This document shows, one piece after another, positions 7,369 to 19,374 of a stretch of 55,432 nt of DNA. Source of the stretch: Deltaproteobacteria bacterium (lineage in GTDB: Bacteria > Desulfobacterota > Desulfomonilia > Desulfomonilales > Desulfomonilaceae); the NCBI GenBank assembly GCA_021777225.1, contig JAJYDQ010000021.1:1-55432 (forward strand), given 5' to 3'. A model generated the notes under the pieces. It saw nothing but the letters and a program-made list of their open reading frames with translations. It searched no databases and was not told the origin of the DNA. The position numbers and the translations under genes were made by a program. The stretch's first letter is position 1. Every line of letters starts with the position of its first letter.

Positions 7369-7382
7369 TAAAAATGACAGTC

Positions 7383-7411
7383 TTGTAATCGCTGGTATAC
7401 GTTTATATAAT
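7383..7411 (+). promoter_or_regulatory. Promoter of the selenoprotein gene
   Basis: A TTGTAA -35 box (7383-7388) is separated by exactly 17 bases from a perfect TATAAT -10 box (7406-7411). Transcription would begin near 7418, about 33 bases before the selenoprotein ATG. This suggests the selenoprotein and the following zinc-ribbon gene are transcribed separately from the lipoprotein gene. Confidence 0.6.
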
Positions 7412-7450
7412 CATAGAAAATGAAAAGGTCCAAATACAGGAGATTCCATC

Positions 7451-7681
7451 ATGGCGGATAAATGTAAGATTACATTCTGTGGTAGTTGAAACTATCGTCC
7501 CAAGGCCGCTGGTCTGGCGGAAGAACTAACACGGGAACTTGGCATCGAACCCGAACTCGTCAAATCGAGTGGAGGAGTTTTCGAAGTCGAATTCAGGAAC
7601 GATCTAATTTTTTCAAAGAAGCAGATAGGACGTTTTCCCGATCCTGGTGAAGTGCTGAACTTGATCAGAAAGAAATTGTAG
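7451..7681 (+). CDS. SelW/Rdx-family selenoprotein (CxxU, in-frame TGA = Sec)
   Basis: Read through the TGA at 7487-7489, this is a 76-residue protein beginning MADKCKITFCGSU, with Cys10 and Sec13 forming a CxxU redox motif. It continues NYRPKAAGLAEELTRELG, then SSGGVFEVEF and KKQIGRFPDPGEVLNLI. This is the complete Rdx/SelW thioredoxin-like pattern: CxxU after the first strand, a Gly-Gly turn before the middle strands, and a K..GRFP.P.EV segment near the C-terminus. CAGGAG sits 8 bases ahead of the ATG. A hairpin just after the TGA fits a bacterial SECIS. The absence of any codon-level decay after the TGA argues for read-through, not a nonsense mutation. The partners of this family are poorly known; a thiol-oxidoreductase role is inferred. 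Confidence 0.9.
7504..7522 (+). promoter_or_regulatory. Candidate bacterial SECIS element
   Basis: Sixteen bases after the UGA codon (7487-7489) the coding sequence can fold into CCGC (7506-7509) paired with GCGG (7517-7520), closed by a U-G wobble and leaving a GGUCU loop. Bacterial SECIS hairpins recognised by SelB lie at this distance inside the reading frame and carry a G in the first two loop positions, as here. The fold was judged by eye only. Confidence 0.6.
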
Positions 7682-7694
7682 GTAGCCAATAATA

Positions 7695-8150
7695 ATGGTA
7701 GTCAAATGTTTTAATTGTCAGACGCTCCTTAAAGTGGAGGCTGACCGTGTGCCCGTAAATGGTCAAATTGACGTTCGCTGCCCCAAGTGTGGAAGTGAGG
7801 GTATAATTTTGGCGCCTCATAGCTCAATTGATCCAAAGGTTGATTTTTTTCAGCAGATGGAAGCGCCGGAAACTAAAATTGCTGAAACCGAGACGGATCT
7901 GACAAAATATAAAACTGCACCCAAGACGAAAACCCAGGTCAAGGCCAGTGAACTGACTCTACCTGAAGACGCTTTCAGAGACTTCCGTTTTCCCGCAGAG
8001 GTTGAATCTTCAGTTAAAAAGGGGGTAAAAGTGAGCCATAGGTCCAACCTGATTACTTTTTTGATTGTTTCAATTCTTGTTGTAGCGCTCTTTGCCGCAC
8101 TGGTAAATGTTATTCTCCCAGGATTGCCTCCTGCGGGGACTGGACAATAA
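7695..8150 (+). CDS. Zinc-ribbon (MJ0042-type) single-pass membrane protein
   Basis: This 151-residue protein opens with MVVKCFNCQTLLKVEADRVP and a second CPKC at residues 31-34. The CxxC-N26-CxxC zinc ribbon is of the MJ0042 kind found in many delta-proteobacterial proteins. A charged linker follows, then one strong membrane helix at about residues 119-142 (LITFLIVSILVVALFAALV) and a short tail rich in Pro/Gly. The topology therefore puts the zinc ribbon in the cytoplasm. It begins 13 bases after the selenoprotein stop and probably shares its transcript. I do not recognise a specific function; similar proteins are annotated only as zinc-ribbon domain proteins. Confidence 0.75.
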   Translation: MVVKCFNCQTLLKVEADRVPVNGQIDVRCPKCGSEGIILAPHSSIDPKVDFFQQMEAPETKIAETETDLTKYKTAPKTKTQVKASELTLPEDAFRDFRFPAEVESSVKKGVKVSHRSNLITFLIVSILVVALFAALVNVILPGLPPAGTGQ

Positions 8151-16907: not shown

Positions 16908-17669
16908 ATGAGACTGTCACCAGGAGAAGTAGAAAAATTGATTCTGCATAATGCGGGTTTTCTCGCCCAGAAAAGATATGCTCGTGGGCTGAAATTGAAT
17001 TATGTTGAATCTGTCGCGTTGATCGCATCACAATTGTTGGAGTTTATTCGTGAAGCGTACAGTGTTTCCAATTTGATGGATCTTGGGAAAAAGATTCTTG
17101 GAATCAATGATGTCATGAGAAACGTGCCGGATATGATTCATGAAGTCCAGGTCGAGGGCACGTTCCCTGACGGCACAAAACTCGTATCCGTACATGGCCC
17201 GATTTGTAGAGATTATGGCGATGAGTCACTGGCGCTCTATGGGAGTGGGTTGATTAGAACGGTGGGAATGTTGCCGACAGACGGAGCGATTCACCGTAGA
17301 CCTGGAGAGATCCTTTCTGAAGATGGTGATGTGATTCTAAATGAAGGCCGCAAAACAGTAACCATTGAAGTTACAAACCGAGGGGATCGGCCTATTCAAG
17401 TTGGTTCCCATTATCCATTTTTTGAAGTGAACCCATATTTGGATTTTAAGAGACAGCAGGCCTATGGTTATCGGCTTAACATACCATCCGGCGCTGCGGT
17501 GAGATTTGAGCCGGGGGAATCCAAAAGAGTAGAATTGGTTGAGATCGCCGGACAAAGAATAGTGTATGGAGGTCACGGTCTCATTTCTGGAGAATTATCC
17601 GAGGCCAATCAGGCTGTCGCTCTAAAGAGCGCCAAAGAGAAGGGTTTTTTGGGAGTAGACAATGAGTAA
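16908..17669 (+). CDS. ureAB: Fused urease gamma/beta subunit
   Basis: This 253-residue protein joins the two small urease subunits. Residues 1 to about 100 are the gamma subunit ([57 protein letters not shown]), and residues from about 125 on are the beta subunit ([40 protein letters not shown]). The gamma-beta fusion is the arrangement known from Helicobacter UreA, where separate subunits are the rule in most bacteria. The beta motif reads [10 protein letters not shown], whereas GSHYHFFEVN is usual. A TTG lies 9 bases upstream, but the ATG at 16908 matches the family start. The stop overlaps ureC by eight bases. Confidence 0.95.
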
Positions 17670-19374
17670 GTGTTTGTCACATTCAGCTTATGCCGAGATT
17701 TATGGGCCGACGGTGGGTGATCGATTGCGTCTAGGTGACACGGACCTCATTATTGAGGTCGAGAAGGATTTCACCGTATATGGAGATGAATGTAAATTCG
17801 GCGGGGGAAAAGTTCTGCGTGACGGAATGGGACAAGCATCTGGAGTATCTGACAATGACGCATTAGACTCGGTGATTACCAATGCGCTCGTAATCGATCA
17901 TTCAGGAATATTCAAGGCGGATGTTGGTATAAAAAACGGGCTCATTGCCGGGATCGGCAAAGCCGGGAATCCTCATATAATGTCCGGTGTTGACCCCGAC
18001 TTAATTGTAGGGGTCACTACGGAAGCCATAGCAGGCGAAGGACTTATATTGACTGCGGGCGGAATTGATAGCCATGTCCATTTTATCTGTCCCCAACAGA
18101 TTCATGAAGCGTTGGCGTCAGGCCTGACGACCATGATTGGGGGCGGAACAGGACCTGCCACTGGAACGAACGCTACCACTTGTACTCCAGGTAGTAACCA
18201 TATTAAAATGATGCTGAGGTCGACAGACGCTTTCCCTCTTAACTTCGGCTTCATGGGAAAGGGAAATTCCTCCCGGACTGCGGGACTCATCGAACAGATT
18301 GAAGCTGGCGCGATGGGTCTAAAACTTCATGAAGATTGGGGAACGACCCCTGCTGTTATTGACGCCAGTCTAATTGTCGCCGACAAATATGACATTCAGG
18401 TCGCAATCCACACAGATACTTTGAATGAATCAGGTTTTGTGGAACATACAATGGCTGCGTTCAAAAATAGAACCATACACACATTTCATACTGAAGGAGC
18501 GGGTGGTGGACACGCTCCTGACATTATCAGGTTGTGTGGTGAGCCCAATGTACTGCCGAGTTCCACAAATCCTACACGCCCATTCACAATTAATACGCTT
18601 GATGAACATTTGGACATGTTGTTGGTGTGTCATCACCTGGACCAGAATATACCTGAAGATATTGCTTTTGCCGAAAGCCGTATTCGTGGTGAAACCATTG
18701 CAGCGGAAGATATATTGCACGATTTGGGCGCCATATCCATGATGTCTTCGGATTCCCAGGCGATGGGACGCATTGGCGAAGTTATTTGCCGCACGTGGCA
18801 GACTGCCCATAAAATGAAGATTCAACGCGGCGCGCTTAAAGAAGACACGGGGAGAAACGACAATTTCAGGGTAAGACGTTACATTGCCAAATACACAATC
18901 AATCCTGCTATCGCTAACGGGATATCGAACCATGTGGGTTCTGTTGAAAAAGGGAAACTCGCGGATTTGGTTCTGTGGAAGCCGGAATTTTTTGGGGTAA
19001 AGCCCGAAATGGTAGTCAAGGGCGGTGTCATCGTCGAGGCTCAGATGGGGGACCCGAACGCGTCCATTCCAACTCCGCAGCCGTACTTCTCCAGACCTAT
19101 GTTCGGGGCCTTTGGTTCGACCGCAAAAAACAACTCGCTTGCCTTCGTATCCAGAGCAGCGATGAATTATGTAAAAGAACGGTACGACCTTGTAAAGAAT
19201 ATAGTGGGGGTTACAAATTGTCGAAATATAGGGAAAAAGGACCTGATTCTGAATGATATTTGCCCGGAGATCGTTGTAGATCCCGAGTCATATAAAGTTT
19301 TTGCCGACGGCGTCCATCTTCGTTGCGAACCGGCGTCTGAATTACCGCTAACGCAAATGTATCATCTGTTTTAG
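17662..19374 (+). CDS. ureC: Urease alpha (catalytic) subunit
   Basis: UreC hydrolyses urea to ammonia and carbamate with a di-nickel centre. All active-site residues are present at a constant +4 offset from the Klebsiella enzyme: His138 and His140 ([10 protein letters not shown]), the carbamylated Lys221 and His223 (GLKLHEDWG), His250 (AIHTDTLNE), His276 ([15 protein letters not shown]), the flap CHHLD (Cys323, His324) and Asp364 ([11 protein letters not shown]). Length is 570 residues, normal. Its start overlaps ureAB by eight bases, typical of coupled translation. The intact active site says the enzyme is functional once nickel is inserted. Confidence 0.98.

Follow-up and report, generated by a model that had tools for sequence, protein, structure and literature searches.

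The window, a stretch of 55,432 nucleotides, almost certainly contains a SelW-like (Rdx family) selenoprotein gene at positions 7451–7681 of the forward strand, in which UGA codon 13 would be decoded as selenocysteine (Sec) by way of SelB, tRNA-Sec, and a hairpin located just past the codon. The gene belongs to one of the most common selenoprotein families of bacteria, within which it is unremarkable. Its novelty is low, and what is known of SelW-like proteins is unchanged by it. Its value lies instead with the organism: a well-supported SelW-like selenoprotein is added to an uncultured deltaproteobacterial-type lineage, and the genome is shown to use selenocysteine, a use that a standard list of open reading frames (ORFs) would not reveal.

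A SelW-like protein encoded across an in-frame TGA

A preliminary description of this DNA had proposed an ATG-opened frame of 77 codons with TGA as the thirteenth, and the frame lies exactly where that description placed it. The start codon ATG (7451–7453) and the stop codon TAG (7679–7681), both read directly from the forward strand, bracket the TGA at 7487–7489, a position that is occupied by TGA or a Cys codon in homologues. Translated with Sec at the TGA, the frame gives a protein of 76 amino acids with a CGSU motif, MADKCKITFCGSUNYRPKAAGLAEELTRELGIEPELVKSSGGVFEVEFRNDLIFSKKQIGRFPDPGEVLNLIRKKL. A profile search of the read-through frame gave a match to the Pfam family Rdx (PF10262) over residues 5–74 (E 5.1e-19; 68.7 bits versus a cut-off of 22.6), which means that sequence from both sides of the TGA makes up a single domain. 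The NCBIfam models NF041051 (90.2 bits, cut-off 88) and TIGR02174 (58.2 bits, cut-off 34.2) also recognize the protein. Together with the fold matches described below, these results agree with the earlier proposal of one Rdx/SelW protein that is continuous across the TGA and carries CGSU at its redox site.

The AlphaFold model of the protein (pLDDT 89.1) has a strand at residues 5–10, a helix at residues 16–30, three further strands, and a C-terminal helix, and the redox motif C10-G-S-U13 sits between strand 1 and helix 1. Both redox positions of the motif are invariant across 23 homologues when TGA is written as C. When the model was used as a Foldseek query, the top 23 PDB matches were all SelW/Rdx-family structures, with bacterial SelW-related proteins matching best and human MIEN1 and mouse SelW following. 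As modeled, then, the protein is one of thioredoxin-like Rdx fold, and translation of the gene would yield a 76-residue thioredoxin-like protein with CxxU between strand 1 and helix 1. Judging by its family, the product probably acts as a small thiol/selenol redox protein.

The gene had also been described as hidden, which is true in one respect. The ORF list contains no forward-strand ORF of at least 70 amino acids between 7368 and 7695, leaving a gap at this locus in a plain six-frame list, and a gene finder that takes UGA for a stop codon can easily overlook a gene of this kind. The description does not extend to curated resources, since the NCBI models score the protein above their cut-offs. 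A related experience comes from the Epsilonproteobacteria, in which SelW genes were wholly missed by genome annotation (PMC4607533).

Evidence for selenocysteine at codon 13

Homologous loci were collected from GTDB contigs (23 loci) and from 60 related genomes (19 matches, with the genome under study included), and the aligned codon is TGA in all 42. Some of these loci represent the same genome in two collections, and 37 distinct sequences remain once duplicates are removed. Within the taxonomic family, TGA is present in 15 of 15 matching genomes (18 searched, own included), and members of the genus differ, both before and after the TGA, mostly in the third positions of codons. A wider phylum sample of 297 genomes contains 42 with an Rdx gene, 39 of them with the in-frame TGA and three with TGT (Cys) in its place. 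Whether homologues carry Sec or Cys here was one of the checks suggested at the outset, and every locus read has either TGA or TGT. None of the loci read has, at position 13, a sense codon for an amino acid other than Cys.

The machinery needed for decoding is encoded in the same assembly, which spans 4.04 Mb and is 97.6% complete. As the preliminary description had anticipated, all four components are present: selA (578.8 bits), selB (402 bits), selD (350.3 bits), and the tRNA-Sec gene selC (68 bits), whose anticodon is TCA (UCA). The selD of the host also encodes a selenoprotein and has its in-frame TGA within SGUAAKIGPGDL (L099, G000:C14:29800-31600). Across the phylum sample, a strong selA accompanies the TGA in 38 of the 39 TGA genomes, the exception being a genome of 82% completeness in which selA matches only weakly (G089). 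The sole Rdx gene from a genome that lacks selA (G131) has a Cys codon in place of the TGA. This co-occurrence is weak evidence when taken alone because selA is present in 269 of the 297 genomes.

The third element is a hairpin at 7506–7520 of the forward strand, CCGCU-GGUCU-GGCGG, which we interpret as the apical hairpin of a bacterial SECIS element. Its 5 bp stem (7506–7510 paired with 7516–7520) starts 16 nt downstream of the TGA, and the GGUCU loop lies 21 nt after the UGA, inside the 16–37 nt reported for the distance from UGA to apical loop in bacteria (PMC10778597). The single-sequence folding energy is no better than that of shuffled sequence (z −0.32 to +0.19), and Rfam matched no RNA family at the hairpin, either in a search of the whole window or with a lax threshold over 7380–7700. 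The support comes from covariation among the 37 distinct sequences. Standard pairs fill 95.7% of the hairpin's pair cells versus 87.5 ± 1.0% in shuffles, 12 cells are changed on both sides versus 1.7 in shuffles, and none of the slid-register controls comes near the covariation of the hairpin. RNAalifold independently predicted nearly the same helix. Compensatory stems include CUUCC/GGAAG (L040), CCACC/GGUGG (L039), CAGCC/GGCUG (L057), and CCGUC/GACGG (L044), and every one of the 37 sequences has a G as the first or second base of the loop. The hairpin with a G-rich loop that had been noticed 16 bases past the TGA is thus present, with GGUCU as its loop, and it covaries in the homologues. In Cys-form genes, the equivalent of the hairpin forms 1–3 of its 5 pairs (n = 3) compared with 4–5 at TGA loci (n = 29), a contrast that is suggestive and comes from three Cys cases only.

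Two other explanations of the TGA must be weighed against these data. A Cys-form Rdx gene could have acquired the codon through a change of TGC or TGT to TGA, as a pseudogene or a sequencing error with no Sec insertion, and it is true that TGA is one base away from either Cys codon and that Cys homologues exist. An accident of this kind is exceedingly improbable when the identical TGA is found in dozens of independent genomes and is conserved across genera, when the differences that flank it are mostly at third codon positions, when the hairpin covaries, and when the host encodes the Sec machinery; it was rejected on the conservation of the TGA. Only slightly less improbable is that a standard amino acid is inserted at the UGA, either by near-cognate readthrough or under a reassigned code. 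In favor of such a reading, the evidence for Sec in this protein is genomic and not proteomic. It is hard to reconcile with homologues that have either TGA or a Cys codon and nothing else at the position in the loci read, with a covarying hairpin at SECIS distance, and with an encoded SelB and UCA-anticodon tRNA-Sec, and the large genes that were read (selA, ileS, urease) are free of in-frame TGA, which speaks against a reassigned code. Decoding as Sec is the reading that we favor. By analogy with established bacterial Sec decoding, the hairpin at 7506–7520 would direct the host SelB and tRNA-Sec to decode the UGA at codon 13 during translation, so that Sec would be incorporated at this position.

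Relation to known SelW-like proteins

SelW-like proteins with CxxU (pfam10262) are a known bacterial selenoprotein family (PMC9312934), and the GOS ocean survey found them to be the most numerous prokaryotic selenoprotein family, with 427 sequences (PMC2398784). They have been listed in Deltaproteobacteria, for example in Geobacter sulfurreducens and Desulfotalea psychrophila, and Cys homologues of them were noted to be very rare or absent in Sec-using organisms (PMC1794560), which fits the 39 TGA genes among 42 in our phylum sample. The window gene shares with the bacterial family (PF10262; TIGR02174; NF041051 SelTWH_Campy) the Rdx domain in a small single-domain protein, the CxxU at the end of strand 1, the in-frame UGA, and the downstream hairpin. 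The two are separated by sequence divergence only, and no difference of kind was found. The bacterial SelW-related structures 2fa8, 2obk, 2oka, 3dex, and 2p0g have the same fold (Foldseek TM-score to the query about 0.8–0.93) and are related in sequence, with about 25–33% identity; in the window gene, the codon for the second redox position is TGA. Mammalian selenoprotein W (2npb, mouse) also has the fold of the window protein and the same CxxU placement. The difference lies in the RNA: the hairpin of the window gene is inside the coding region just past the UGA, as in bacteria, whereas eukaryotic SECIS elements are found in the 3′ UTR (PMC10778597).

Promoter, gene neighborhood, and other features of the window

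The signals for expression are of the usual bacterial type. A Shine-Dalgarno sequence, AGGAGA, can be read directly at 7438–7443 on the forward strand, where its AGGAG stops 8 nt short of the ATG, and a similar AGGA-containing motif precedes the ATG in members of the genus. Farther upstream is a predicted sigma-70-type promoter (7383–7411, forward strand), with a −35 element TTGTAA at 7383–7388, a 17 nt spacer, and a −10 element TATAAT at 7406–7411. Calling this promoter perfect, as the preliminary description did, was an overstatement, given that it matches the consensus at 10 of 12 positions. The −10 TATAAT, together with a TTG-type −35 element at 16–17 nt, is nonetheless kept upstream of selW in all seven genus species compared, and this conservation suggests that the gene is probably transcribed from its own promoter. 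The same conservation makes it less likely that selW is tightly linked in an operon to the gene upstream.

The order of genes around selW (transglutaminase-like, selW, zinc-ribbon, and HD-domain (dgt-like) hydrolase) is kept in relatives from the genus, which also speaks for the selenoprotein reading. One conceivable reason for the conserved order is that a specific partner of the selenoprotein is encoded nearby, an idea that we consider unlikely. The zinc-ribbon protein directly downstream (7695–8150, forward strand) has a C-terminal hydrophobic segment, and its adjacency to selW is conserved in the genus; its sequence diverges much faster than that of the neighboring dgt-like gene.

Elsewhere in the window, a urease cluster surrounds the alpha-subunit gene at 17662–19374 (forward strand) and includes UreD, a fused gamma/beta subunit, UreF, and a CobW/HypB/UreG-type gene. 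On the reverse strand at 17815–18109, across from the 5′ part of the alpha-subunit gene, Rfam matched the antisense RNA family 5_ureB_sRNA (102.9 bits). The match may stem only from conservation of the urease coding sequence that it faces and not from an expressed RNA.
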